From Alcaligenaceae bacterium (lineage in GTDB: Bacteria > Pseudomonadota > Gammaproteobacteria > Burkholderiales > Burkholderiaceae_B), in NCBI GenBank assembly GCA_013416395.1, contig JACCEP010000006.1, positions 62,001 to 126,000 of the forward strand: DNA of 64,000 nucleotides, read 5' to 3'. Positions 1 through 18,854 of the stretch are shown here, piece by piece (position 1 is the stretch's first letter; every line of letters begins with the position of its first letter). The notes beneath the pieces were generated by a model, which was given only the letters and a program-made list of their open reading frames with translations, made no database searches and was not told where the DNA came from. Both the position numbers and the translations under genes were made by a program.

Positions 1-1038
1 TTCTTCGCCCATGGCACCCAGCGCATACAGAAAAGCCCGCCCGATCATGGTGCCTTTGGCGCCCAGTGCAACCGCCTTGAGCACGTCTTGGCCCGAGCGT
101 ATGCCGCCGTCCATCCACACCTCGATATCGTTGCCAGCTGCTTGCGCGATGGCGGGCAGTGCCGAGATGGAGGAAGGGGCGCCATCGAGCTGCCTGCCGC
201 CGTGGTTGGATACGATCAGGGCATCTGCGCCTGAGTCGACCGCCAGACGGGCGTCTTCAGCATCCATGACACCTTTGAGTATTAGCTTGCCGCCCCAGCG
301 GTTTTTGATCCACTCGATATCTTCCCAGCACAACGAAGGATCAAACTGCTCTGCCGTCCAGGAGGAAAGCGAGGAGAGGTCAGAAACCCCTTTTGCGTGG
401 CCCACGATATTGCCGAACGAACGACGTTTGGTGCCCAGCATGTTAAGACACCAGCGCGGTTTGGTGGCAAGGTTGATGAGGTTGATGAGGGTAGGCTTGG
501 GTGGTGTGGAGAGGCCGTTTTTAATGTCTTTGTGTCGCTGGCCAAGCACTTGTAGGTCGAGCGTAAGTACAAGCGCTGAACATCGGGCTGCTTTGGCGCG
601 ATCAATGAGGCGCTCCATGAAATCGCGGTCGCGCATGACATACAGCTGGAACCAGAACGGCCGGCTGGTATGGGCGGCGATATCTTCTATGGAACAGACG
701 CTCATGGTAGAGAGCGTAAACGGTATGCCGAATTTTTCAGCGGCTTTTGCGGCCAGAATTTCGCCATCGGCGTGTTGCATACCGGTTAGGCCGGTAGGCG
801 CCAGCGCAACCGGCATGGATACATCGATACCGATCATTTTGGAGTGCAGGCTGCGCTTTTCTATGTCGCAGGCGACGCGCTGGCGAAACTTGAGCTTGTG
901 AAAGTCAGTTTCGTTAGAGCGGTAGGTGCTTTCCGTCCAGGAGCCGGAATCGGCATAGTCGTAGAACATTCTTGGAACCCGGCGTTCAGCGAGACGACGG
1001 AAATCTTCGACGCAAGTCATTTTGGATAGTGTGGGCAC
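1..1038 (-). CDS. FMN-dependent alpha-hydroxy-acid dehydrogenase (L-lactate dehydrogenase-like), 3' end missing
   Basis: Reading leftward, 346 codons are present before the window edge. The family (LldD, glycolate oxidase) is usually about 380 residues, so roughly 35-45 C-terminal residues are missing. Family motifs are clear: FYDYADSG near the N terminus, a PVALAPTG stretch, an LTLDLQV strand, LKGVM with the FMN-contacting lysine, and SNHGGRQLDG around residue 277 carrying the catalytic His and substrate-binding Arg. The visible end is the usual GRAFLYALGAMGEE. The chosen start is GTG at 1038, because AGGAG lies 8 bases upstream; an in-frame ATG six codons later has no such site. The expected reaction is oxidation of an L-2-hydroxy acid to the 2-keto acid, with electrons passed to the respiratory chain. 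The substrate cannot be told from sequence. It appears to be transcribed alone in what is visible. Confidence 0.9.
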   Translation of the reverse strand, partial: MPTLSKMTCVEDFRRLAERRVPRMFYDYADSGSWTESTYRSNETDFHKLKFRQRVACDIEKRSLHSKMIGIDVSMPVALAPTGLTGMQHADGEILAAKAAEKFGIPFTLSTMSVCSIEDIAAHTSRPFWFQLYVMRDRDFMERLIDRAKAARCSALVLTLDLQVLGQRHKDIKNGLSTPPKPTLINLINLATKPRWCLNMLGTKRRSFGNIVGHAKGVSDLSSLSSWTAEQFDPSLCWEDIEWIKNRWGGKLILKGVMDAEDARLAVDSGADALIVSNHGGRQLDGAPSSISALPAIAQAAGNDIEVWMDGGIRSGQDVLKAVALGAKGTMIGRAFLYALGAMGEE

Positions 1039-1199
1039 GTCGGTTAGCTCCTGGCGAGAAAAAATGATCAGCACCAATGTGGTGCAGGTTAAGCGATTAG
1101 CGTCGGCGCTACGTGCGACGAACCGTTTTTGAATGGGCTGTATTATGCCTGTGGTCGGCCGGTCTGACCATAGGGGTCATCGCGTAGTTAGGGGGGTTA

Positions 1200-2132
1200 T
1201 TAAATAAGATGTAGGTGAGTTGCTGCACTGGCCTGCACCAGCATGGCTTGCCCGCCATTCCACCAGATGATTTTTGCCACCGTAGCCAGTTGTGCAATTT
1301 CAATAGCCTGCGCCGCGTCGCTTTCAATGAAATGTGTGTGACAACGTGCCAAAATGGCTTCTGCCTTGTGTTGCGAAGTTTGAGGTGCGCTGTGGCGCAA
1401 CTCGTCACGCATGACAAGTGGGCCATGAAACCCATGTTGGTTCAGCCATGCGGCAGTGCGTACACGATCTTGTTCTGGGCGGCCGGTAATAATGCTGATC
1501 TGAGAAAGATCCAACCCTGGCAGCAATGTATTGGGCACGAGTTTGTCACGCTGCGCCAGCGTTTCTTGCAGCGCCCGTGCATACTGCTCTTCGGGTAAGT
1601 CCATCAACAGCACCCCGTCCAGATCAATAGCCCATGATGCGTACTCGTATTCGGCTCGGTCGGGCTGGTTGTGGATGGCATCAAACTGCGGCGTAACAGA
1701 GGTGCGTTCCCACGGAAACCAGGCTCTGTAGCCATCGGGTATCAACATGCCAAAGTCAGGGCGTATGCGAGATTGGTCATCGTAGGCCAGCGTGAAGACA
1801 GACACCCTGAACCCCAGGTTTTTCAAAAACTCGATGCTGTCTGAAAGGGTGGTGCCGCGCCCGGCGACATCCTCGACGAGCAGTACATGTGTTCCTGGCT
1901 CCGGACGGGCGGCCGTAAACCAGGACACTTTGCGGTCTGGGCGCGAATAGCCAACGGCGTATAAAGGCAGGGAGAGCTCGGTTGATGCCATCATCCCGGC
2001 CACAAGCCCGCCACGGGCTATAGCCACCACAGCGTCGAAACCGGCCTGCCTCCATTGGCTTATATAACTGGCAACAATCGATTCAACGCGGGTGTAGTCG
2101 TAGCTGTAAGCTCGACGAAGAGGGAGTGTCAT
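1200..2132 (-). CDS. Phosphoribosyltransferase fused to a HAD-like domain
   Basis: The N-terminal half is a type I phosphoribosyltransferase: VVAIARGGLVAG, then the PRPP-binding loop LLVEDVAGRGTTL. The C-terminal half, from about residue 185, looks like a HAD-superfamily fold: AIDLDGVLL (motif I, DxD), IITGRPEQDR (motif II Thr), a lysine in SQHKAEAI, and an acidic FIESDAAQA motif IV. Purine or orotate PRTases are normally 150-220 residues and lack such a tail, so this is a two-domain fusion. The start is uncertain: ATG at 2132 is used, but an in-frame GTG at 2162 would add ten residues and neither has a convincing ribosome site. It lies 120-150 bases downstream of an NCS2 nucleobase permease on the same strand, which suggests nucleobase salvage with a linked phosphatase or nucleotidase activity. 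That function is inference; the domains are seen. Confidence 0.85.
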   Translation of the reverse strand: MTLPLRRAYSYDYTRVESIVASYISQWRQAGFDAVVAIARGGLVAGMMASTELSLPLYAVGYSRPDRKVSWFTAARPEPGTHVLLVEDVAGRGTTLSDSIEFLKNLGFRVSVFTLAYDDQSRIRPDFGMLIPDGYRAWFPWERTSVTPQFDAIHNQPDRAEYEYASWAIDLDGVLLMDLPEEQYARALQETLAQRDKLVPNTLLPGLDLSQISIITGRPEQDRVRTAAWLNQHGFHGPLVMRDELRHSAPQTSQHKAEAILARCHTHFIESDAAQAIEIAQLATVAKIIWWNGGQAMLVQASAATHLHLI

Positions 2133-2221
2133 GGCAAGCTCGGGCAACAAGGCAAGGGCCACCGTGAAAATCGGTGGCCTGATACAAACATATAAGCATC
2201 AAGTTTACCGGGGTTTTCGTG

Positions 2222-2244
2222 AGGCGGGCCTTCTTTGCCCGCCT
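2222..2244. terminator. Possible hairpin terminator between permease and PRTase genes
   Basis: An 8-bp perfect stem (AGGCGGGC / GCCCGCCT) with a 7-base loop lies 40 bases past the permease stop. There is no U tract on either strand, so it may be an attenuating hairpin or mRNA-stabilising structure and not a classical intrinsic terminator. Confidence 0.4.
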
Positions 2245-4778: not shown

Positions 4779-4854
4779 GCAGCTGTAGCTCAGTTGGATA
4801 AAGTGCTTGGCTACGAACCAAGGGGTCATGGGTTCGAACTATGAGTGTCCACCA
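4779..4854 (+). pseudogene. Degenerate tRNA-Arg copy
   Basis: This 76-base stretch follows the intact tRNA-Arg of this window (15670-15746, opposite strand) almost base for base from the acceptor 5' arm through the D arm, the anticodon arm (loop CTACGAA, anticodon ACG) and into the T loop (GGGTTCGAA). It then diverges in the last 16-17 bases, although CCA is kept at the end. The acceptor arm no longer pairs and the T arm pairs only if shifted by one base. I read it as a decayed or partially replaced tRNA copy. The 150 bases upstream show no other feature. Confidence 0.6.
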
Positions 4855-5285
4855 ACAATAGCTCATGCGCGTGTTCGGGTTTGCTGAAGACTCACTTTAT
4901 GAGACTAAAAGTGCCATTTATTATATTTAAATGACATGCAGTTATGTAGTGAGATCAAATCCGGGTTAAACCCCATGTTCTTCTATATCTTATTGTTTAA
5001 TAAGAAAAAATTATAGATTTATAGTCTTGTTGTTCTCAGTAAATAAATAATTATTCATATAAATCTGAGTTCAATCTATAAGATCAATACAAAAAATCGA
5101 GACGAAACGATCCATTTTCAAGGGTAATCACGTATATAGTCTCGCGCCCTATCAATGCGATGATGAACCTACGTTTTGAATCGTCAGCATTTATGTGGTT
5201 TTTCGTCTCAGAAAAGCCGTTATTGCTGGGTGTTTCGTGTTCGAGCATAGGCTTGTGAACGACCGAAAGGTCAGGTACTCAATTT
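4855..5285 (+). promoter_or_regulatory. AT-rich leader of the peptide-transport operon
   Basis: About 430 bases with markedly lower GC than the neighbours, including runs such as ATTATATTTAAATGAC and TAATAAGAAAAAATTATAG. No gene is visible. An inverted pair GAGACGAAA (5099-5107) and TTTCGTCTC (5201-5209) could base-pair over about 90 bases. The promoter of the rightward dpp-like operon probably lies here, but I cannot assign -35 and -10 boxes with confidence. AT-richness may reflect transfer or a bent-DNA regulatory region. Confidence 0.4.
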
Positions 5286-6263
5286 ATGAATTCAGCAGGT
5301 TTTGTTTTCCGTCGTGCGCGAGACGGTGTGCTTTTAATTATCGCGGTTGTCGTGCTCAATTTCTTCTTGCTCAGCGCGGCCCCCGGTGATATCGCTGACG
5401 TGCTGGCTATGCAGGCAGGTGGTGCAACCAGCGAGCAGGTTGAAGGCATTCGCAAGGAACTCGGCCTGGATAAAGGCGTATTTAGCCAGATGATTACTTA
5501 CGTTACCAGGGTGGCACAGGGAGACCTCGGTCAATCGCTTTTTTACAATGATTCGGTTGCCGGGTTGATCGCAGAGCGTCTGCCAAACACATTGCTTCTG
5601 GTCTTGCCTGCCATGACGATTGCCGTCGTGCTGGGAACGCTACTGGGCGTTCTGTCGGCCTACCGTCCTCGTGGCCTGTTCAACATGGGCGTTACTTTAT
5701 TTTCTCTGGTGGGTTTTGCGGCGCCTGTGTTCTGGAGCGGCATGGTCTTGCTTATTGTTTTTGCTTATTGGTATCCAATTTTTCCAGCGTCGGGCATGTA
5801 TGACATCGGTGCATACCCCAGCGGGTTTGACGCGGTCTTGCAAGTCGCCCACCACCTCGTTTTGCCGGTTATTTCATTAAGTATGGTGTATCTGGCTCAA
5901 TACAGTCGCCAGGCACGAGCCACCATGCTTGATGTGCTCGGTTCCGACTATGTGCGTACCGCTCGCGCAAAGGGTTTGCGCGAAAAGGCGGTGGTTTACA
6001 AACACGCGCTCAAAAATGCAGTGTTGCCGGTCGTGACGCTTGCTGGCTTGCAGTTTTCGCATGCGGTAGCAGGGGCTGTGCTGGTCGAAACCGTATTTAA
6101 CTGGCCAGGACTGGGTCGGTTGGCATTCGATGCCGTGTTGAATCGCGATTTTCCTCTCATGCTGGGCTTGCTGCTCGTTTCGAGTGTGCTTGTGGTGATC
6201 GTAAACATTCTTGTGGACTGGCTCTATAGCGTTCTCGATCCACGTATCAAGATGGAAGGGTAA
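5286..6263 (+). CDS. Peptide/nickel-type ABC transporter permease (DppB-like)
   Basis: A 325-residue inner-membrane protein of the DppB/OppB class. It has a first hydrophobic helix at about residues 13-32, a periplasmic domain with the DIADVLAMQAGGATSEQVEGIR-like region and the LGLDKG element, then five further membrane segments. The EAA loop that docks to the ATPase is in the DYVRTARAKGLREKAVVYKH region (about residues 222-241). It is first in a tight operon: DppC-like follows 4 bases later. Together with the next gene it forms the membrane channel of an oligopeptide-type importer. The initiator ATG has only a weak ribosome site (AGGT). Confidence 0.94.
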   Translation: MNSAGFVFRRARDGVLLIIAVVVLNFFLLSAAPGDIADVLAMQAGGATSEQVEGIRKELGLDKGVFSQMITYVTRVAQGDLGQSLFYNDSVAGLIAERLPNTLLLVLPAMTIAVVLGTLLGVLSAYRPRGLFNMGVTLFSLVGFAAPVFWSGMVLLIVFAYWYPIFPASGMYDIGAYPSGFDAVLQVAHHLVLPVISLSMVYLAQYSRQARATMLDVLGSDYVRTARAKGLREKAVVYKHALKNAVLPVVTLAGLQFSHAVAGAVLVETVFNWPGLGRLAFDAVLNRDFPLMLGLLLVSSVLVVIVNILVDWLYSVLDPRIKMEG

Positions 6264-6267
6264 GACC

Positions 6268-7098
6268 GTGAATTCAGGATGGAAACTATTTTTAGCCAAC
6301 AAGGGCGCGGTTGCCGGTGCAATACTGCTCGCAATCATTGCCTTTGCGGGAATATTCGGCCACTGGCTCTACCCCGTAAGTGCAACAGAAATTGTTGCTG
6401 CTCCGCTGGAAGCGCCAAGCATAGCGCTGCCCATGGGTGCTGACTATTTAGGCCGAGATGTTTTTGCGGGGATCATGCATGGCGCAGGGACGACGCTGTT
6501 GATCAGCCTGGCCGCAACGCTCACCACCGTCATCATCGGGCTGTTTCTCGTCGGCGCGACATCTGGCTTTTTCGGAGGAAAAGTCGACAACATACTGATG
6601 CGCATCACCGAGTTTTTTCAGGTCTTGCCTCCCATATTGCTGGCCATGGTGTTGGTTGCGGTGTTCGGCACAGACATCTGGATCGTAATTTTGGTCATTG
6701 GCCTGGTTAGCTGGCCGCCGCTGGCGCGACTGACGCGGGCTGAGTTTCTCAAGCTCAAGCAACGCGAGTTTATACGTGCTGAATACTCTATAGGCTCGAG
6801 CAATCTGAACATTATGTTTAGGGTGTTGTTGCCCAACGCCTCGCCACCACTGATTGTGGCAACCGCATTAACGGTGGGCACAGCCCTTCTGTTTGAGTCA
6901 GGCTTGTCGTTTCTCGGCCTTTCGGATCCAGACGTAATCAGCTGGGGCTACATGATCGGCTCGTCACGCGACTACATATTTGATGCGTGGTGGTCGGTTA
7001 TTTATCCCGGCACAGCCATATTTCTGACTGTATTGTCCATTAGTTTGCTTGGCGATGGTCTGAACGACGCGCTTAACCCAAATCTTCGAGAGCGATAA
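6268..7098 (+). CDS. Peptide/nickel-type ABC transporter permease (DppC-like)
   Basis: A 276-residue DppC/OppC-class permease. The start is GTG at 6268, preceded by GGAAGGG; longer in-frame starts lie inside the previous gene. The N-terminal helix (about residues 11-33) is followed by a periplasmic stretch with the family signature LGADYLGRDVF-like (here MGADYLGRDVFAGIMHGA). The EAA loop is at REFIRAEYSIGSSNLNIMFR. It pairs with the DppB-like subunit, and the next gene begins 7 bases after its stop. Confidence 0.94.
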   Translation: MNSGWKLFLANKGAVAGAILLAIIAFAGIFGHWLYPVSATEIVAAPLEAPSIALPMGADYLGRDVFAGIMHGAGTTLLISLAATLTTVIIGLFLVGATSGFFGGKVDNILMRITEFFQVLPPILLAMVLVAVFGTDIWIVILVIGLVSWPPLARLTRAEFLKLKQREFIRAEYSIGSSNLNIMFRVLLPNASPPLIVATALTVGTALLFESGLSFLGLSDPDVISWGYMIGSSRDYIFDAWWSVIYPGTAIFLTVLSISLLGDGLNDALNPNLRER

Positions 7099-7105
7099 GC
7101 GCATC

Positions 7106-8134
7106 ATGACTGAAAACCTTTTAGAAGTTAAAGATCTGTGCGTGGAGTTTGGTAGCAAAAAAAAACCCGTACGTGTCCTTGATCATGTAAATCTTCACGT
7201 GGCGCCGGGCGAGGTGCTGGGTATTGTGGGCGAATCGGGCTGTGGCAAAAGCATGACCAGCCTGGCCATTTTGCGCCTTATCCCTCAGCCGCCCGGACGG
7301 ATTACCAAAGGCACCATTACCTTAAACGGAACCAACCTTCTCGACCTGTCACAGTCCAAAATGCAGGATGTCAGAGGCAAAGATATTGCCATGATCTTTC
7401 AGGAGCCTATGACGGCACTGAACCCTGTGTTTACGATTGGGCAGCAAATTATCGAGACGGTTCGCAGGCACGAGCGAGTCAGTGCGAAACAGGCCCGGGA
7501 ACAGGCTTTTGAGCTACTTAAGTCTGTACGCATTCCAGAGCCAGAAAGACGCCTGGATCAGTACCCGCATGAGTTATCAGGCGGTATGCGGCAACGCGCC
7601 ATGATAGCCATGGCGCTGGCCTGTCGCCCAAAGGTGTTAATTGCCGATGAACCCACCACCGCACTTGACGTTACGGTGCAGGCACAGATTTTTGATCTGC
7701 TGCTCGACCTGCGAAAACAGTACAACACAGCCATCATTTTAATTACCCACAACATGGGAGCGGTGGCCGAACTCGCTGACCGTGTGATGGTGATGTATGC
7801 AGGTCGAAAAATTGAAGATGGATCCGTCGAACGTGTTTTGCTCAATCCAATTCATCCGTATACCAAAGGCTTGCTCGGTTGTGTTCTTAATGTGGAGCAT
7901 GACCCCGACAAGTTTTCGGAAACCGACCTGCTGCCTGAGATCCCCGGCGTTGTTCCTCCTTTGAGCGAGCTTGGGCCTGGCTGTGCGTTTGCACCACGCT
8001 GCAGCTACGTCATGGAAAAATGCCGCCACGAGCGCCCGCCGATGTTGGGGCGCAAAAACTGGGAAGCCGCCTGTTGGCTAAACGTTGAAACTGCGGAGCA
8101 AGAAGTTTCAGAGAACGAGAAGAGTCCAGTATGA
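7106..8134 (+). CDS. Peptide ABC transporter ATPase (DppD-like)
   Basis: A 342-residue ATPase with Walker A GESGCGKS (residues about 43-50), Q-loop IFQEPMTALNP, signature LSGGMRQR, Walker B VLIADEPTTALDV and switch His in LITHNMG. The C-terminal extension has the oligopeptide/dipeptide transporter cysteine cluster (CAFAPRCSYVMEKC), a feature of DppD/OppD proteins. Its last four bases overlap the start of the partner ATPase (ATGA). The two ATPases form the heterodimeric motor of the importer. Confidence 0.95.
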   Translation: MTENLLEVKDLCVEFGSKKKPVRVLDHVNLHVAPGEVLGIVGESGCGKSMTSLAILRLIPQPPGRITKGTITLNGTNLLDLSQSKMQDVRGKDIAMIFQEPMTALNPVFTIGQQIIETVRRHERVSAKQAREQAFELLKSVRIPEPERRLDQYPHELSGGMRQRAMIAMALACRPKVLIADEPTTALDVTVQAQIFDLLLDLRKQYNTAIILITHNMGAVAELADRVMVMYAGRKIEDGSVERVLLNPIHPYTKGLLGCVLNVEHDPDKFSETDLLPEIPGVVPPLSELGPGCAFAPRCSYVMEKCRHERPPMLGRKNWEAACWLNVETAEQEVSENEKSPV

Positions 8135-9147
8135 CGCAGTCAACAACGATGTTAGAAGTTCGTGACCTGAAGGTGCACTTTGCTTTGAAGAAGGCAGGAC
8201 TGCTTTCTGAGCCTGCGCATGTGTATGCAGTTGATGGTGTGTCGTTCGATGTGAAGCAGGGCAGTGCGTACGGCATTGTTGGCGAGTCTGGATGCGGAAA
8301 ATCCACAACCGCTTTGGCCCTGGCTAACCTTATCGTGCCGACCGGCGGTGAGATCATTCTGAACGGCCAATCGTTAACCGCCCGTACCAGAAAGGAAATG
8401 AAAGAGATCCATAAAAATCTGCAAATGATTTTTCAAGACCCTTATTCATCGCTGGACCCAAGGCAACGCGTCGAAAATATTATTGCAAAGCCCATGCGTC
8501 AATTGACCAACATGGACGAAGCGGCGATCAGTCGCCGTGTTGACGAGTTGATTACGAAAGTGGGCTTGAGGCCTGAACAGAAAAAACTGTTTCCCCATCA
8601 GTTTTCGGGCGGACAGCGTCAACGTATTGGAATTGCTCGCGCACTGGCCGTTAACCCAAAGCTGATCATCTGTGATGAGCCGGTTTCGGCCCTGGACGTG
8701 GCCATACAGGCGCAGGTGATTAACCTGCTAAAGCTGCTGCAAAAAGAGCTGGGGCTTACCTACGTTTTTATATCGCATGATTTGGCGGTGGTGCAACGCC
8801 TGTGTGACGCGTTAAGTGTGATGTACCTGGGGCGTGTGGTAGAGCAGGGTGATCGTCGGGAGATTTTTTCCAGACCTTTGCACCCATACACGCACGCATT
8901 GCTAACTGCGGACCCGGTGAAAGACCCGACGCAACGCGGTCAAGTTAAGCGTTTACGCATTGAGGGCGATCCACCGAGCCCGATCAACCCCCCGTCGGGT
9001 TGTCATTTTCATACACGTTGCCCTTATGCCCAAGAAATCTGTAAGCAGGAAATGCCGATTTTGCGCGATGTGGGCGAGGGGCAGCGCGTGGCCTGTCATC
9101 TTGTGGAAATCGTAAATAACAAGCCGGTTAGCCCCGTTTCGTTGTAA
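8131..9147 (+). CDS. Peptide ABC transporter ATPase (DppF-like)
   Basis: A 338-residue partner ATPase. Walker A GESGCGKST, Q-loop IFQDPYSSLDPRQRV, signature FSGGQRQRIGIARAL, Walker B LIICDEPVSALDV and H-loop FISHDLAVV are complete. The C-terminal CHFHTRCPYAQEIC cysteine motif marks the DppF/OppF group. Translation is coupled to the upstream ATPase by the ATGA overlap. A 37-base gap separates it from the amidohydrolase, so the whole set is likely one transcript. Confidence 0.95.
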   Translation: MTQSTTMLEVRDLKVHFALKKAGLLSEPAHVYAVDGVSFDVKQGSAYGIVGESGCGKSTTALALANLIVPTGGEIILNGQSLTARTRKEMKEIHKNLQMIFQDPYSSLDPRQRVENIIAKPMRQLTNMDEAAISRRVDELITKVGLRPEQKKLFPHQFSGGQRQRIGIARALAVNPKLIICDEPVSALDVAIQAQVINLLKLLQKELGLTYVFISHDLAVVQRLCDALSVMYLGRVVEQGDRREIFSRPLHPYTHALLTADPVKDPTQRGQVKRLRIEGDPPSPINPPSGCHFHTRCPYAQEICKQEMPILRDVGEGQRVACHLVEIVNNKPVSPVSL

Positions 9148-9184
9148 CCGTACCGGGTTTAGTTTGAGTTTTATTGGAAGCACT

Positions 9185-10849
9185 ATGCAACAGTCTAACG
9201 ACATTACCATCTTTAAAGCGCGCAGCATCATTACCATGAACCCCATGCAGCCCCGGGCAACGCATGTGGCTGTTCGTGAAGGCCGTATTCTTGGCGTAGG
9301 CGATGAGGCCTCGCTAAAAGGCTGGGGAACAGCAACGCTTGACGAAACATTCGCCGATAAGGTGCTGATGCCCGGTTTGGTCGAAGGGCACTGTCATTTG
9401 CTTGAAGGTGGCATGTGGAGTTATGTCTATGTCGGGTTTTACGATCGTCGTGGTCCTGACGGCAAATTGTGGACGGGGCTTAAAAGCTTTGACGAGGTTA
9501 TTGGACGGCTGAAAGAAGCGCGCGCCGCCGCCGATGACGCTGCACCCGTCTATGCGTGGGGCTTTGACCCTATTTATTTTGATAACCAACGCATGACGAC
9601 GGAGCATCTGGATCAGGTCTCTGATACGCAGCGTGTCGTCCTGCTGCATGCCAGCGCGCACTTGATGAATGTGAATAGCGCAATGTTGCGCGAAGCGAAC
9701 ATTACTAAAGAGACGGCGATTGAAGGCGTTGTGCTGGACGAAAACGGTAAGCCTTCGGGTGAGCTTCAAGAGTTCGCTGCCATGTATTTGGTTTATCGCA
9801 AGATCGGAAACATCTTTTTTGATGCCGGCCAGACAGAAGAAGGTATCTGGAATTTTGCAAGGGTGGCGCATCTGGCCGGGGTAACAACCGCCACAGACCT
9901 GGTTAATGATTTAAGCGATACCACAATAGCGAATCTGTCTAAGGTAACGCTGCTGGACGATTACCCGTTGCGCATTGTGCCAGCCTACGCGCCGTCACGT
10001 GATGCAGAGAACAAGGCCTTGCAGCGAGTGCTTCCTGCCATGGATAACAATAACGACAAGCTGCATTTTGGTATTGTAAAACTGGTTATTGACGGCTCTA
10101 TTCAGGGTTTTACCGCACGTGTCAGATGGCCTGGTTATTACAACCCGCCAAACGGCGTGCAAAAAAACGGTATCTGGATTGTGCCGCCGCATCAACTCAA
10201 AGATCTGATCAAAACGTATCATGATGCCCGGCTAACCGTTCACATCCATACCAATGGCGATGAGGCAACAGAGGTTGCTCTCGATGCGATAGAGCAACTG
10301 CTTGAGGAAAGCCCGCGCTGGGATCACCGCCACACGCTGCAGCATTGCCAAATGGCAGATGCGTATCAGTTCAGGCGCATGGCGAACATGGGTGTATGTG
10401 CAAATCTGTTTTCTAACCATTTGTACTACTGGGGTGATGCACACTACGCACTGACCATGGGGCCAGATCGCGCGAACCGCATGAATGCAACGGCCACGGC
10501 AAAAGCGACAGGCGTTCGTTTTTCCTTGCACTCAGATGCACCAATTACGCCGCTGGCACCGTTGTTTACCGCGTGGTGTGCGGTAAACCGTCAGACGGCG
10601 TCAGGTCGTGTGCTTGGCGATAGCGAAAAAATCTCCGTGCAAGATGCGCTTTCTGCCATGACGCTGGGTGCCGCCTACACGCTGAAACTGGATGAAAAAA
10701 TCGGCAGTATCGAGGTGGGCAAGCTGGCTGACTTTGCCGTGCTCGACGATGACCCATTGGAAGTCGCACCAGAAGCGTTAAAAGACGTTCGTGTCTGGGG
10801 GACGGTTTTGGGCGGCAGAGTATTTCCGTGTGCCACTAAAAATGCTTGA
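9185..10849 (+). CDS. YtcJ-like metal-dependent amidohydrolase
   Basis: A 554-residue amidohydrolase-superfamily protein of the YtcJ/AepA (amidohydrolase_3) group. The metal-binding HxH is in LVEGHCHLLEGG (about residues 65-76); further ligands are expected in VHIHTNGDEA and LQHCQMA; the catalytic Asp is in FSLHSDAPITPL. The C-terminal sheet ends with the typical GKLADFAVLDDDPL. The start is ATG at 9185 behind GGAAG; an in-frame TTG at 9164 is less likely. It sits inside a peptide-type importer operon, so it probably hydrolyses an imported amide, N-acyl or cyclic amide substrate in the cytoplasm. No signal peptide is seen. Substrate is unknown. Confidence 0.9.
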   Translation: MQQSNDITIFKARSIITMNPMQPRATHVAVREGRILGVGDEASLKGWGTATLDETFADKVLMPGLVEGHCHLLEGGMWSYVYVGFYDRRGPDGKLWTGLKSFDEVIGRLKEARAAADDAAPVYAWGFDPIYFDNQRMTTEHLDQVSDTQRVVLLHASAHLMNVNSAMLREANITKETAIEGVVLDENGKPSGELQEFAAMYLVYRKIGNIFFDAGQTEEGIWNFARVAHLAGVTTATDLVNDLSDTTIANLSKVTLLDDYPLRIVPAYAPSRDAENKALQRVLPAMDNNNDKLHFGIVKLVIDGSIQGFTARVRWPGYYNPPNGVQKNGIWIVPPHQLKDLIKTYHDARLTVHIHTNGDEATEVALDAIEQLLEESPRWDHRHTLQHCQMADAYQFRRMANMGVCANLFSNHLYYWGDAHYALTMGPDRANRMNATATAKATGVRFSLHSDAPITPLAPLFTAWCAVNRQTASGRVLGDSEKISVQDALSAMTLGAAYTLKLDEKIGSIEVGKLADFAVLDDDPLEVAPEALKDVRVWGTVLGGRVFPCATKNA

Positions 10850-11816
10850 ATCCAAAAAGCTTCCCATGACGGTGCTTGGGGGGTTTCTTGGGTCTGGAAA
10901 AACCTCTCTGCTAAACCACATTTTGCGATCCCCGCATGGGATGCGCATCTTGGTGATGGTTAACGATTTTGGTAGCCTGAATGTTGATGCGTCACTGATC
11001 GAATCGACGAATGAAACTGAAGGCGTCATCAACCTGACCAATGGCTGTGTCTGTTGCTCTATGGGCAGTGAGTTGGTCAGGGCTTTGCTGCAAATTGAAG
11101 CAATGGTGCCTGAGCTTGATTGGCTAATTATTGAAGGCAGCGGCGTCAGCGACCCAAAAAGCATTGCCCGGATTGGACAGGCAGGTGGTGCTTTCGAGCT
11201 GAGGTCTATCGTTACCCTAGCTGATGTAAGCACGATTCAAAAAATGGCCAAAGATCGTTATGTAGGCGATGTCGTATTGCAGCAGCTGATTTCAGCAGAT
11301 CTGATCTTATTGAATAAGACGGATCTGGTTGATGATAAGCAGCGCCACAGTGTGATGGACTGGTTACGTGAAAAGGCACCCACGACGCCGTTGCTTGAGT
11401 CTGTGCACGCTGAAATTGCCTGGCAGCATATATTGAACACCGCACAGCCCGGGCAGGTTGCCGGGTCGGACACGAGCGAGGATAGGTTTCGCTTGTTGCA
11501 TGGGTTTAATGACGAAGAGACGCATAGCGCGCGTAATTTTTCGACGCTAACGGTTACCCAGGGCGCTGCGTATGACGAGGAAAAGCTGAGGGCGATTTTG
11601 GATAACTTGCCCGACGAGGTTTTTCGAATTAAGGGCTTGATTTATGTGGGGCCTGACGCTGCACTCACTTGGTTGCAGTATTCCCCTAATAAAAAGCATG
11701 AGCTGGTGGCGAGTTCGGGCGACGATGCAGAGCTGGCAGGCAACGTCATAGTTATTGCATCCAAGGCCCTGAATACAGAGCCACTGGAACAGCTTTTTCG
11801 CTCGGCAGAGTTGTAG
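10842..11816 (+). CDS. COG0523 (G3E) metallochaperone GTPase, CobW/YjiA-like
   Basis: A 324-residue G3E-family GTPase. Walker A is GFLGSGKTS (about residues 14-22), the metal-binding CxCC motif is GCVCC (about residue 65), Walker B-like IIEGSGVSDP follows and the guanine-specificity motif NKTD is present. The C-terminal CobW domain includes the RIKGLIYV strand. The start is ATG at 10842, overlapping the amidohydrolase stop by eight bases; a longer in-frame form would lie within that gene. Family members deliver or insert zinc, cobalt or iron into client enzymes. Overlap with a metal-dependent hydrolase makes that enzyme the obvious candidate client. I see no Zur-like site, so zinc regulation is unsupported. 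Confidence 0.92.
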   Translation: MLESKKLPMTVLGGFLGSGKTSLLNHILRSPHGMRILVMVNDFGSLNVDASLIESTNETEGVINLTNGCVCCSMGSELVRALLQIEAMVPELDWLIIEGSGVSDPKSIARIGQAGGAFELRSIVTLADVSTIQKMAKDRYVGDVVLQQLISADLILLNKTDLVDDKQRHSVMDWLREKAPTTPLLESVHAEIAWQHILNTAQPGQVAGSDTSEDRFRLLHGFNDEETHSARNFSTLTVTQGAAYDEEKLRAILDNLPDEVFRIKGLIYVGPDAALTWLQYSPNKKHELVASSGDDAELAGNVIVIASKALNTEPLEQLFRSAEL

Positions 11817-11861
11817 CGAAACAAATCATTATTATCAATACCTATTATTTAAAGGGAAATT

Positions 11862-13469
11862 ATGTCAAACCCCAGACGTCTGATTAAGTTGGCTTTGGCC
11901 GGCCTGTTTTCGATGTCGGCCGTTCTTGCAAGCGGTGCTCATGCCGAGCAAACCGCCAACGTCAAGAAGGGCGGCACGTTGACGGTGTTGTCAAACTCGG
12001 CCATCAACTCACTGAACCCGGCAATACAGTCAGGTGCAGCCACGGCTGTGCCCGGCTCCCAACTATTTGCCAGCCTGGTCATCGCTGACGATAAGTGGCA
12101 GTTTCAACCTTATCTTGCAGACTCCTGGGAAGCTTCAGAGGATGGCAAGACATATACGTTTCATCTGAACAAAGATGCAATCTTTCATGATGACAAGCCA
12201 ATTACCTCCGAAGATGTCGCCTTTTCTGTGAAGACGGTTGCAGAAAATCACCCATTCGGCAAAGCGATGTATGCCAATCTTGAAAGTGTAGAAACACCGG
12301 ATGCACATACGGTTGTTGTGAAATTTGCAAAGCCCAACCCAGCCTTTCTGCTAGAGGTGTCAACACCCGCTTTGCTGCCAATTTTGCCCAAGCATATTTA
12401 TGCTGAAGGCTCGATTCGCACAAACCCGTATAACAATAAGCCGATTGGGTCAGGCCCTTTCAAGTTTGCCGATTACAAGGCCGGGGAATATTTGACGCTA
12501 GAAAGGTTTGACAAGTTTTTCAAAGGGCCTGCCAACCTGGATAAGATCACCGTTGTGATCATAGCCGACCGTAATGCCGCCACTTTGGCACTGCAGCGCG
12601 GCAATATCCAGTACGCTGCATATCCGCCCTTACGTTTGGCTGATATTGATCGTTTGGGCAAAAATCCTAATTTGATCGTCTCTCAGAAAGGCTACGAGGG
12701 TGCTGGCGCGTTGGTCTGGATGGAGTACAACCTGGTCAAAGAAGGGCCGTTGCAAAACGTGAAGGTAAGGCAGGCAATTTCGTATGCCATTGACCGTAAG
12801 TTCGTTACCGAGAAGCTTCAATCTAACCACACCAAGCCTATTTTCGGGCCTCTCCATCCATCCAGCCCCTTTTACGATAAAGATCTGAACGAGTACGGTC
12901 TGGATCTGGATAAGGCCAATAAGCTCTTGGACGAGGCTGGCTATCCGAAAAAAGACGACGGAACTCGATTTGATATTACGCTGGACTATATCCCGACTGG
13001 TCCTGATACGAGCAAAACCGTGGCCGAATATTTGCGCCCTCAGTTGGCAAAAATAGGCGTAAAGGTAGAGCTACGTCCATCACCTGATTTCCCCACTTGG
13101 GCTCGTCGTATCTCTAATTTTGATTACGATATGAACATAGATGTTGTCTTTAATTGGGGAGACCCGATTATTGGTGTCGAGCGCAGTTACATGAGTACCA
13201 ACATCAGGAAAGGGGTGATTTGGGCCAACATGAGCGGCTATGACAACCCCAAGGTTGACGAAATTCTAACGCAAGCAGCCGTCGAAAATAACCCTGAAAA
13301 GCGTAAAGCGCTTTATCAAGAATTTCAGAAAATCGTTAACGAAGAACTACCCGTTGCGTGGTTGACAACGTACCCCGGAAATACTGTTTACTCCAAAAAA
13401 CTGGTAAATGTGCCAGAGGGTATTTGGGGTGCATTTGCACCATTTAATGAGATGGGCTGGGCTAAGTAA
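11862..13469 (+). CDS. Peptide ABC transporter periplasmic binding protein, copy 1
   Basis: A 535-residue family 5 extracellular solute-binding protein (DppA/OppA class). The signal peptide covers about residues 1-28, ending in an AHA-EQ cleavage site. The mature N terminus KKGGTLTVLSNSAINSLNPA and the YTFHLNKDAIFHDDKPITSED segment are typical of the family. It should capture the substrate in the periplasm for the permease pair encoded upstream. AAAGGGAAA precedes the ATG. A closely similar paralogue follows 137 bases later. Confidence 0.95.
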   Translation: MSNPRRLIKLALAGLFSMSAVLASGAHAEQTANVKKGGTLTVLSNSAINSLNPAIQSGAATAVPGSQLFASLVIADDKWQFQPYLADSWEASEDGKTYTFHLNKDAIFHDDKPITSEDVAFSVKTVAENHPFGKAMYANLESVETPDAHTVVVKFAKPNPAFLLEVSTPALLPILPKHIYAEGSIRTNPYNNKPIGSGPFKFADYKAGEYLTLERFDKFFKGPANLDKITVVIIADRNAATLALQRGNIQYAAYPPLRLADIDRLGKNPNLIVSQKGYEGAGALVWMEYNLVKEGPLQNVKVRQAISYAIDRKFVTEKLQSNHTKPIFGPLHPSSPFYDKDLNEYGLDLDKANKLLDEAGYPKKDDGTRFDITLDYIPTGPDTSKTVAEYLRPQLAKIGVKVELRPSPDFPTWARRISNFDYDMNIDVVFNWGDPIIGVERSYMSTNIRKGVIWANMSGYDNPKVDEILTQAAVENNPEKRKALYQEFQKIVNEELPVAWLTTYPGNTVYSKKLVNVPEGIWGAFAPFNEMGWAK

Positions 13470-13606
13470 GCTAAGGTTGTAACAGGGGCGGCATATTCTG
13501 ATTTCACGCTAATTTTGATGTGTTAACAGAATGTGCCCAGCAGGGTGGTTTTCCAACTGAGCGATAGCAAAGTTGATTACTAATACTCATCTATAGAGGG
13601 GAATTT

Positions 13607-15214
13607 ATGTCACAACCCAAACGTCTGTTTAAGTTGGTGTTGGCGGGTCTATTTTCGATGTCGGCTGTTCTTGCGAATGGTGCGCATGCCGAACAGGCTG
13701 CCAGCGTCAAGAAGGGTGGCTCCCTGACTGTACTTTCAAACTCGGCAATTAACTCACTGAACCCGGCTATACAGTCAGGCGTGGCAACCGCTGTTCCAGG
13801 CTCTCAGTTGTTCGCCAGTTTGGTAACTGCTGATGATAAGTGGCAGTTTCAACCCTATCTTGCAGACTCTTGGGAAGCCTCTGAAGATGGAATGACGTTT
13901 ACGTTTCATCTGAATAAAGCTGCCGTTTTTCACGACGATACGCCGATTACTTCTGAGGACGTTGCGTTCTCGATCAATACCGTCGCAGAAAACCACCCGT
14001 TTGGGAAGTCAATGTATGCCAATCTTGAAAAAATAGAAACACCTGATAAGCATACGGTTATTGTTAAATTCTCAAAGCCAAACGCTGCCTTTTTACTTGA
14101 AGTGTCGACACCCGCTTTGTTGCCGATCTTGCCAAAACATATTTATAGCGAAGGGTCGATTCGTACGAACCCGTACAATAACAAGCCGGTTGGTTCGGGC
14201 CCCTTCAAGTTTGCTGACTACAAACCTGGGCAGTATTTAACGCTAGAAAGATTCGATAAGTTTTTCATGCCGGTCGCCAATCTGGATAAGATTACGATCG
14301 TTATTATGGCTGATCGTAATGCCGCCACGTTAGCGTTGCAGAGAGGTAGTATTCAATACGCGCCTTATCCCCCTCTTCGTCTGAACGACATTGATCGACT
14401 GGCAGAAGACGCAAACTTAGTGGTCTCTCAAAAAGGCTATGAAGGTGTGGGGGCGTTGTACTGGATGGAGTACAACTTGACTAAAGAAGGGCCGTTGAAA
14501 AATGTAAAGGTCAGGCAGGCAATTTCTTACGCCATTGATCGAAAGTTTATTACTGAAAAACTCCACAAGGGCTATACAAAGCCTGTTTCCGGGCCTATCC
14601 ATCCGTCGAGCCCGCTTTATAATAAAGACCTGAATGATTACGCGATGAACCTTGAAAAGGCAAACGCGCTACTGGATGAGGCGGGGTTTCCCAGAAAGGA
14701 TGATGATTCGCGATTTAGTCTGACGTTAGATTATCTGCCGGCGGGTGTTGATATGACCAAAACAGTTGCAGAATATCTACGCCCTCAGCTCGATAAAATC
14801 GGTATAAGGGTTGAGCTGCGGCCATCGCCCGACTTCCCCACTTGGGCTCGTCGAATTTCAAACTACGATTACGACTTAAATATCGACGCAGTTTTTAATT
14901 GGGGCGATCCAACGATTGGGGTTGCACGATCTTACATGAGTTCAAATATCAGGAAGGGTATCGTGTGGGCCAACATGAGTGGCTACGAAAATGCACGCGT
15001 TGACGAGCTTTTAACGCAAGCGGCAACCGAGAGTAACCCTGATAATCGTAAAGAACTTTACGGTGAGTTCCAGAAAATCGTTAACGAAGAGCTTCCGATT
15101 GCCTGGTTGAATACGTATCCTGGAAATACTATTTACTCCAAAAAACTGGTAAATGTTCCAGAGGGTATTTGGGGTGCTTTTGCACCGCTCAATAAAATGG
15201 GATGGGCTAAATAG
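13607..15214 (+). CDS. Peptide ABC transporter periplasmic binding protein, copy 2 (tandem paralogue)
   Basis: Exactly the same length (535 residues) as the preceding gene and identical at roughly four of five positions by eye, including the signal peptide and both ends, so this is a tandem duplication. AGAGGGGAA precedes the ATG. Many synonymous differences show that the duplication is not recent, yet both frames are intact. This suggests selection to keep both, perhaps for different ligands or affinities. A strong hairpin follows 70 bases after the stop and probably ends the operon. Confidence 0.95.
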   Translation: MSQPKRLFKLVLAGLFSMSAVLANGAHAEQAASVKKGGSLTVLSNSAINSLNPAIQSGVATAVPGSQLFASLVTADDKWQFQPYLADSWEASEDGMTFTFHLNKAAVFHDDTPITSEDVAFSINTVAENHPFGKSMYANLEKIETPDKHTVIVKFSKPNAAFLLEVSTPALLPILPKHIYSEGSIRTNPYNNKPVGSGPFKFADYKPGQYLTLERFDKFFMPVANLDKITIVIMADRNAATLALQRGSIQYAPYPPLRLNDIDRLAEDANLVVSQKGYEGVGALYWMEYNLTKEGPLKNVKVRQAISYAIDRKFITEKLHKGYTKPVSGPIHPSSPLYNKDLNDYAMNLEKANALLDEAGFPRKDDDSRFSLTLDYLPAGVDMTKTVAEYLRPQLDKIGIRVELRPSPDFPTWARRISNYDYDLNIDAVFNWGDPTIGVARSYMSSNIRKGIVWANMSGYENARVDELLTQAATESNPDNRKELYGEFQKIVNEELPIAWLNTYPGNTIYSKKLVNVPEGIWGAFAPLNKMGWAK

Positions 15215-15323: not shown

Positions 15324-15599
15324 ACATGACTTGCCGGGCTTCAGCCATCTTGGCTGACGCCAAGTTAATTGTTTCTGAACAAACGCTACAGATATAAAGA
15401 GAAAGAAGGGTATAGGTCGTACGCTACGATTTAGCGCTTTAATTCACGCTCGCACCGTTAAGTGGTTCGCCTGTCAGGGTGAGAGCGCCTTGAAATTGAG
15501 CGCCCATCCCTCGTTAGTAAGGATGAACCCCGTGATTACGCGTGCGCGATGAGTGCCTACCGCGCTTTATTGGGGAAGAGCCTGCACTCATGAGAATTA
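15324..15599. other. Intergenic region without a recognised gene
   Basis: Between the operon terminator and the tRNA terminator I see no reading frame with a ribosome site and no known RNA family. Short stems occur (for example CATCC...GGATG around 15506-15527), but none is convincing. Confidence 0.4.
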
Positions 15600-15639
15600 G
15601 AAAAAAGAAAACCCCGTAAAGCAGTTAAGCTTTACGGGG
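15600..15639 (-). terminator. Intrinsic terminator of tRNA-Arg
   Basis: Read on the minus strand, an 11-bp stem (CCCCGTAAAGC / GCTTTACGGGG, loop of six) is followed by TTTTCTTTTTT. It lies 30 bases beyond the tRNA 3' end. A second palindrome (CTAGTTAA / TTAACTAG, 15646-15662) lies between the two. Confidence 0.85.
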
Positions 15640-15669
15640 CTTCAACTAGTTAAATTAACTAGCTTGTTC

Positions 15670-15746
15670 TGGCGCGGCTGGCAGGATTCGAACCCACGAC
15701 CCCTTGGTTCGTAGCCAAGTACTCTATCCAACTGAGCTACAGCCGC
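15670..15746 (-). tRNA. tRNA-Arg (anticodon ACG)
   Basis: Read on the minus strand: acceptor GCGGCTG pairs with CAGCCGC, followed by discriminator G and an encoded CCA. The D arm is GCTCAGTTGGATAGAGT-like, the anticodon stem CTTGG/CCAAG frames loop CTACGAA (anticodon ACG), and the T loop is TTCGAAT with a stem containing G-T pairs. All cloverleaf parts are present in 77 bases. A terminator follows it. A degenerate copy in the opposite orientation is at 4779-4854. Confidence 0.95.
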
Positions 15747-15929
15747 TGCAAGTGAGGCGTAACTATAACATAGAATTTGAACTTGTCCAGTCTAACCCAA
15801 GAAAACCTTTTCTGGAAGTCAGGGATTGGACGTTTTTCCGACACAGGGCCGGCTTTTACCCAGATACGGGACAGAGTGGGGCAAGTGTGCCAGAGTGTCT
15901 GTCCTTTTAATGGGACAGCAGCTATAGAC

Positions 15930-18173: not shown

Positions 18174-18854
18174 TTACGAAAACCGTTTTTGACAAATATG
18201 CTCGAAGGCGCTGCGTATGTCACTTTGAAGTGCATCGCGCGCTGAACTGGCGTCGCCGGCCTCAAGTGCGTCTATCATTTTTTCATGATGGACCACAGCG
18301 ATTTTGTTTTCTGTTCTCTCTGAACCGATATGCAAATCGTAGTTGAGGATAGGGCCTATTCTAAGCCACAGGCTTTCAATAATTTTGACCAGCATGGGCA
18401 TGCCTGCGGCTTCATAAATCGCAAAGTGCAGTTTTTTGTTTAATTGCACGACGTTGGCCATGTCTTTGCCCGGCGGGCCCATTTCATCAGCGAGTGCGTT
18501 GCTCAGCCTGCGTAGCTCACTTAGCAAGTCGGGCGTTACATGTTGCGTCGCCTGTTCCACCGCGTAACCCTCAACCTGCAGGCGTATTTCTGTAATTTCA
18601 CGGAACTGCTGTGCATTGAGGGTGGGCACGCGCACTGAGCGATTGGGCGCCACCTCAAGTGCCTGGTCGGCCACCAGTTGATAAACCGCTTCGCGCACGG
18701 GCATCACGCTTACACCAAGTGCTTCTGCCGTTGAGCGCAAAGAAAGTTGCTCACCGGGCATGACGCGTCCTGTCAGCAAAAGCTCTTTAATTTGTGCGAG
18801 CGCATTGGAGCCCAGTGTCTCTCTTCGCGGAGGTGGTTTAAGTGCGAAAGTCAT
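18174..18854 (-). CDS. GntR-family regulator with FCD domain
   Basis: A 226-residue regulator. The N-terminal winged helix (about residues 10-75) contains GEQLSLRSTAEALGVSVMPVREAVYQLVADQAL. The C-terminal part is a helical FCD ligand-binding domain with metal-binding positions in REITEIRLQVEGYAVE and a HHEKMIDALEAGDASSARDA segment. It lies upstream of an adenine deaminase gene on the same strand and diverges from an SDR/BKACE catabolic cluster. A TGTGATC-rich palindromic site stands in the divergent gap, so it probably controls one or both transcripts. Confidence 0.92.
   Translation of the reverse strand: MTFALKPPPRRETLGSNALAQIKELLLTGRVMPGEQLSLRSTAEALGVSVMPVREAVYQLVADQALEVAPNRSVRVPTLNAQQFREITEIRLQVEGYAVEQATQHVTPDLLSELRRLSNALADEMGPPGKDMANVVQLNKKLHFAIYEAAGMPMLVKIIESLWLRIGPILNYDLHIGSERTENKIAVVHHEKMIDALEAGDASSARDALQSDIRSAFEHICQKRFS

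Follow-up and report, generated by a model that had tools for sequence, protein, structure and literature searches.

Eight genes on the forward strand of an Alcaligenaceae genome, at positions 5286–15214 of the 64,000-nucleotide stretch analyzed here (GenBank assembly GCA_013416395.1, contig JACCEP010000006.1, positions 62,001–126,000; hereafter the window), are best read as a member of the known N-acetyltaurine (naa) system, in which the binding protein genes would have moved behind the GTPase gene, one of them would have been duplicated, and no LysR gene is adjacent. Judging from comparative sequence evidence, we estimate a probability of about 0.6 that the cluster is an naa utilisation operon and that its COG0523 GTPase serves as a metallochaperone for its hydrolase. 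In such an operon, two near-duplicate binding proteins would deliver N-acetyltaurine (or a short N-acyltaurine close to it) to an ATP-binding cassette (ABC) importer of the Opp/Dpp type, and in the cytoplasm a metal-dependent NaaS-like Amidohydro_3 enzyme would cut the amide to yield taurine and acetate. Taurine would then enter the sulfoacetaldehyde route, the enzymes of which (Xsc, Pta, and a sulfite exporter) appear to be encoded at another site in the genome, while the overlapping NaaT-like GTPase would act as a dedicated metallochaperone filling the metal site of the hydrolase.

Relation to described naa systems

A first-pass annotation of the window had described eight same-strand genes of these families, and both the coordinates and the Pfam matches agreed with it. 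Its further suggestion that the system is undescribed had to be given up, since the annotation of genes SPO0657–0664 in Ruegeria pomeroyi DSS-3 describes an N-acetyltaurine system made up of the same components. The relevant passages of PMC4334477 list SPO0657 as naaT ("Metallochaperone, putative"), SPO0658 as naaS ("N-acetyltaurine amidohydrolase"), SPO0659 as the LysR gene naaR, and SPO0660–0664 as the N-acetyltaurine ABC transporter naaA, B, B', C, and C', with Denger et al. (2011) among the sources that the text cites. Elsewhere, naaS is named among the R. pomeroyi genes enriched on Micromonas exometabolites (passage in PMC9870897), and naaABB'CC' is tabulated among uptake systems with diel expression (table in PMC9038784). 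The R. pomeroyi cluster shares with the window a hydrolase with a neighboring putative metallochaperone, two permeases, two ATPases, and a binding protein. It differs in that all genes of the window operon lie on one strand and that the GTPase is followed by the binding proteins, of which there are two instead of one.

Two Paracoccus loci (P. aminovorans, L187, and Paracoccus sp. MA, L198) showed the published gene order, with a LysR gene between a divergent importer and the hydrolase–GTPase pair. Compared with these, the window proteins were 52–54% (permeases), 55–58% (ATPases), 44–46% (binding proteins), 50% (hydrolase), and 31–33% (GTPase) identical, and the hydrolase gene was directly upstream of the COG0523 GTPase gene in all three. 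Denger and colleagues reportedly described N-acetyltaurine degradation in Cupriavidus necator H16 in 2011, with an amidohydrolase NaaS and a symporter where the window has an ABC importer. Loci of Burkholderia multivorans and Caballeronia, composed of an SSF symporter, DUF3311, the hydrolase, and the GTPase, look like this C. necator type.

Conservation of the hydrolase–GTPase pair

When 200 genomes of the same family were searched with the GTPase, matches were obtained in 31, and at 29 of the 30 loci returned (one being the window itself) an Amidohydro_3 gene was directly upstream on the same strand. The converse search with the hydrolase in 101 relatives found 14 places in 12 genomes, each followed by the GTPase (14/14). 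Among named loci, covered as the best 80 of 526 confirmed relatives and skewed to Burkholderiales, 79 also kept the pair. Hydrolase scores in the order and phylum samples (54 loci with retrieved sequence, approximately 1.5 kb on each side) formed two widely separated sets: the GTPase was present at 21 of 22 loci with a hydrolase of at least 677 bits vs. 2 of 32 with one of no more than 393 bits. The adjacency of hydrolase and GTPase is thus far beyond chance, although these sets of loci overlap in part (the named one too) and the family, relatives, order, and phylum loci include the window.

That the two genes are neighbors by chance or for merely historical reasons, without a functional link, is highly improbable. 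Neighboring genes can travel together on islands, and the segment 2232–15583 that holds the operon is absent from a sister genome. This explanation is nevertheless already contradicted by the conservation counts, as the pair recurs in 79 of 80 named loci despite varied other neighbors and at 21 of 22 clade loci of the order and phylum samples. The observation that would have told against the tie, a GTPase with unrelated neighbors in all homologous loci, was looked for in these genomes and was not made.

In total, 15 of the genomes hold 68 cobW-family matches, and the partner of the hydrolase is therefore one particular member among several. Identities to the window proteins were 58–83% for the hydrolase (two at 47–48%) and 30–58% for the GTPase, the hydrolase being the better conserved. 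Within the genus, the pair was found in the window genome (G000), G052, and G080, and not in G013 and G102. At one locus (L011, genome G188), the match to the hydrolase next to the GTPase was split into several pieces lying in different frames, as would be expected of a broken gene.

The first-pass annotation had proposed a single system in which an amide-containing compound is taken up and then cleaved in the cytoplasm by a hydrolase that the GTPase supplies with metal. Import and cytoplasmic cleavage are supported as an inference, and the tie between GTPase and hydrolase gained support from the conserved adjacency, from the separate GTPase group described below, and from importers that vary while the pair stays. 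On balance, metal loading of the hydrolase is the more probable role of the GTPase.

The GTPase lineage

The GTPase matched cobW (147.7 bits) and CobW_C (28.6 bits), both above the Pfam cut-offs. Its GCxCC motif (C69, C71, and C72) was invariant in the GTPase alignment and the P-loop was kept. It reached neither the NCBIfam model for CobW of cobalamin synthesis (TIGR02475, 136.2 vs. a cut-off of 332.1 bits) nor that for ZigA/subfamily 1 (131.5 vs. 600 bits). A maximum-likelihood tree was calculated for 108 GTPases, kept after removal of every second named locus, of short, weak, or near-identical sequences, and of duplicates of the window protein. One branch (support 100/97) separated the 86 Amidohydro_3-linked from the 22 unlinked proteins, and this split was present in 100% of 200 bootstrap trees; the tree carries a warning of several long branches. 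The row for L011 is labeled as lying beside another hydrolase, its real partner being the clade member in broken frames mentioned above.

Five linked rows (L183, L185, L190, L227, and L228) adjoin hydrolases outside the main clade. L228 is situated at a contig end and its preceding hydrolase was not recovered as an open reading frame (ORF). The other four partner hydrolases are 29–35% identical to that of the window and form two groups, L238/L240 (44%) and L190/L241 (57%), with the pairs at L238:745–7608, L240:6352–9969, L190:6968–9744, and L241:5980–8828. Near these divergent pairs lay either TctC receptor and LysR genes or an ABC importer of the branched-chain type; at L238, the row consisted of hydrolase, GTPase, a LysR gene, a TctC receptor, and a second Amidohydro_3 gene. 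Tentatively, and at slightly less than even odds, NaaT may be part of a COG0523 lineage whose clients are Amidohydro_3 hydrolases generally rather than N-acetyltaurine amidohydrolase alone, a proposal resting on few loci and on sampled rows. No description of this wider partnership was recognized in the literature searched, with key papers outside that search.

Other COG0523 proteins offer partial parallels. CobW, Nha3, and YciC/ZigA share with the window GTPase the COG0523 class and the GCxCC motif, and the linked GTPases, including that of the window, stand apart from the 22 unlinked COG0523 proteins sampled. A guanidine hydrolase is encoded with dedicated HypA/HypB-like nickel chaperones; it resembles the window in having its own G3E-class GTPase and differs in hydrolase fold and in the G3E branch concerned. 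According to the main text of Haas et al. (2009), in which the word "amidohydrolase" does not occur, Nha3, with a GCxCC motif, likewise clusters with a single client, the Fe-type nitrile hydratase.

The hydrolase and its metal site

In the hydrolase alignment, H69, H71, K299, H355, H387, and D451, the presumed metal ligands in this superfamily, were invariant in 112 of 112 clade rows (which include the window protein twice) and in 29 of 29 outgroup rows. An altered metal site as the reason for a chaperone was set aside, as the six expected ligands are unchanged. Thirteen residues were nearly fixed within the clade and rare outside it; a clade-specific extra histidine, suspected by eye, was absent from these 13 columns. 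The best matches in a sequence search of the PDB were the uncharacterized metal-dependent hydrolases 3IGH and 3ICJ, and the closest hydrolases among the best 80 of 526 named loci came from Paralcaligenes ureilyticus (82%) and Advenella (70–71%). Chemistry of the N-substituted formamide deformylase type was set aside because the neighborhoods gave no support for it. The other full-length Amidohydro_3 protein of the genome (L035, G000:C44:134378–135850) was 30% identical to the window hydrolase, and no COG0523 match was found in its fetched flanks.

Alternatively, the GTPase could act in general metal homeostasis, or as a regulator or assembly factor, and the operon could belong to a zinc-scarcity response. 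The ordinary metal ligands of the hydrolase would be compatible with this, and a COG0523 gene of Paracoccus denitrificans shares a Zur-controlled cluster with a Ni/dipeptide-type ABC transporter (main text of PMC5387054, where "amidohydrolase" does not appear). Using a Zur-like pattern, 15 matches with three mismatches each were counted in the window vs. a mean of 8.2 in shuffled sequence (a count equalled or exceeded by 2 of 100 shuffles), and two of the 15 lie 5' of the operon at 4976–5002; no match had fewer than three mismatches. We consider this explanation unlikely, as the GTPase stays with the hydrolase when the importer is swapped and the linked GTPases form a group of their own.

Importers and binding proteins

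For the importer parts, every NCBIfam match shown for the named Opp, Dpp, Nik, and Gsi transporters fell under its curated cut-off (for the two ATPases, among the best 25 matches); the nearest was PRK11308, with 407.1 vs. 408 bits, for the gene at 8131–9147. Across the 64 named loci with full flanks, a Dpp-type importer and an SSF symporter were each found at 29, a TctC receptor at 4, and none of the three at 2. The two last (L076 and L078) carry Dpp-type genes in a separate gene listing. Identity thresholds of our own choosing were used for these neighbor counts, since ORF calls in high-GC loci are unreliable. Because the importer varies while the pair stays, the hydrolase–GTPase pair is the core of the system and the importer is exchangeable.

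The two binding proteins of the window have 437 of 535 residues in common. With dN of 0.11 and dS of 1.8, both are evidently under constraint, judging from the substitution pattern. Two binding proteins were also found in G127, the closest relative by GTPase, and one each was detected in G033 and Paralcaligenes.

Sulfonate metabolism and the substrate

The host genome (5.08 Mb in total) had a single Xsc match above the curated cut-off (C11:618338–620092, 1068.8 vs. 676.4 bits); its neighbors include Pta (PTA_PTB), a MocR-like regulator, an exporter of the TauE type, and an ABC importer of the OpuAC type. In the family sample, xsc was present in 27 of 29 paired genomes vs. 22 of 171 others; in 17 of these 27, xsc and the pair lay within 14.1 kb on one contig, which was not the case in the other 10, including the host. 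The paired group leaves out G035, whose locus has no hydrolase, and G181, for which there was no locus; with all 31 kept, the counts became 27 of 31 vs. 22 of 169. Unpaired genomes were those without a GTPase match at E 1e-30, and they include G004 and G046, which have a distant pair as well as xsc; one counted xsc match (G188) was partial. The order sample gave a weaker association (9 of 15 genomes with a clade hydrolase vs. 26 of 285). Fisher values for the three comparisons (8e-18, 5e-16, and 4e-6, respectively) overstate the certainty because the genomes are related.

Among the neighbors of the pair in relatives were phosphate acetyltransferase and two oxidoreductases, one of DAO type accompanied by a small SnoaL protein and one of GMC type together with an MFS transporter. 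Within approximately 9 kb of the pair in the 80 named loci, Xsc was found in 16, Pta in 6, DAO in 49, SnoaL in 39, GMC in 20, and TauE in none; at L054, the sulfoacetaldehyde acetyltransferase near the pair scored 1077 bits against the cut-off of 676. The DAO oxidoreductase and SnoaL protein are, as we presume, reminiscent of taurine dehydrogenase TauY/TauX (NCBIfam named neither), and the GMC oxidoreductase and MFS transporter presumably of isethionate genes. From this context, the substrate is likely to be N-acetyltaurine or a close short N-acyltaurine.

As a separate observation, pairs of CobS-like AAA and CobT-like VWA genes were found near xsc in the host, Advenella, and Caballeronia (L201:9327–12019, L054:3194–5919, and L189:9541–12257; the Caballeronia annotation reads AAA family ATPase and cobalt chelatase). 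CobT-like genes were present in 6 of the 80 named loci.

Several observations weigh against the naa assignment with a dedicated chaperone. The host xsc is on a different contig (C11) from the operon (C42), and xsc was missing in 2 of the 29 paired genomes of the family sample and in 6 of the 15 clade-hydrolase genomes of the order sample. No LysR gene adjoins the operon, unlike in R. pomeroyi and Paracoccus, and the likeness to R. pomeroyi and C. necator is one of annotation and description, not of direct sequence comparison. Two clade loci lacked the GTPase: L057 of Advenella sp. S44, in which another locus (L056) has the pair, and L142 in the order and phylum samples. Lastly, the hydrolase is, by its sequence, a normal metalloenzyme. 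Outgroup hydrolases share the same ligands, so the metal site fails to explain the need for a chaperone, and most of these outgroup enzymes have no COG0523 neighbor.

The xsc-less genomes also bear on the possibility that the same architecture handles another N-acyl amide (a longer N-acyltaurine, another sulfonate amide, or a non-sulfonate amide), with the two binding proteins perhaps serving two ligands. Importers that differ among loci, the duplicated binding proteins, and a hydrolase just 50% identical to the Paracoccus enzyme would fit this alternative. It is somewhat unlikely, as xsc, pta, and TauE are encoded in the same genome, xsc co-occurs strongly with the pair in the family, and the 13 near-fixed residues of the hydrolase clade suggest one reaction.

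Gene layout and genomic surroundings

In order along the forward strand, the naa-like operon begins with a DppB-type, NaaB-like permease (5286–6263; BPD_transp_1, 144 bits; 52% identical to the P. aminovorans permease) and a DppC-type, NaaB'-like permease (6268–7098; BPD_transp_1 and OppC_N; 53%). The ATPases follow, one of DppD type and NaaC-like (7106–8134; 58%) and one of DppF type and NaaC'-like (8131–9147; 55%), both with ABC_tran and oligo_HPY domains. Next are the NaaS-like Amidohydro_3 hydrolase, named by its probable substrate (9185–10849; 252 bits; 50%), and the NaaT-like COG0523 GTPase, a putative metallochaperone (10842–11816; 33%). Two NaaA-like periplasmic binding proteins of 535 residues each complete the row, at 11862–13469 (SBP_bac_5, 298 bits; 46% identical to the P. 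aminovorans binding protein) and, as a tandem duplicate, at 13607–15214 (SBP_bac_5, 293 bits).

Three starts were refined from the points at which family matches begin: GTG 6268 for the second permease, ATG 9185 for the hydrolase, and ATG 10842 for the GTPase are the likelier start codons, GTG 10791 being merely the mechanical ORF start of the GTPase. With these starts, the overlaps noted in the first-pass annotation were retained at two junctions only (DppD/DppF, 4 nt; hydrolase/GTPase, 8 nt), and the remaining five are gaps of 4, 7, 37, 45, and 137 nt. The GTPase gene does start inside the hydrolase gene, as had been pointed out, by an ordinary short overlap that is nothing unusual.

No LysR regulator was found among the operon genes or the ten flanking ORFs scanned, in which the sole regulator was of the GntR/FCD type (18174–18854). 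In a search for an RNA switch, Rfam returned tRNA and one sub-threshold match (17.2 bits vs. a gathering score of 46). The G+C content was 0.47–0.53 across 4 to 16 kb vs. 0.52–0.58 in the rest of the window. In the sister genome G102 of the same genus, a homologue of window positions 2–2231 (86%) is followed by 65 bases and then by a homologue of 15584–15770 with a tRNA-Arg (96%), the segment 2232–15583 being missing; this reflects either an insertion in the window genome or a deletion in G102. At 4779–4838, 5' of the operon, 56 of 60 bases match the first 60 of the tRNA-Arg(ACG) at 15670–15746; this stretch is inverted relative to the tRNA gene and lacks a proper 3' end.

Implications

Clusters of the naa type are already known in other bacteria; what is worth testing is the chaperone–client claim and the wider partnership of GTPase and hydrolase. 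An operon first taken as undescribed is now recognizable as an organosulfur (C2-sulfonate) utilisation system, and its very tightly conserved COG0523–client pair offers a direct way to test the metallochaperone idea. If the wider partnership is real, it would represent a metallochaperone lineage specific to one client family and combined with exchangeable importers.

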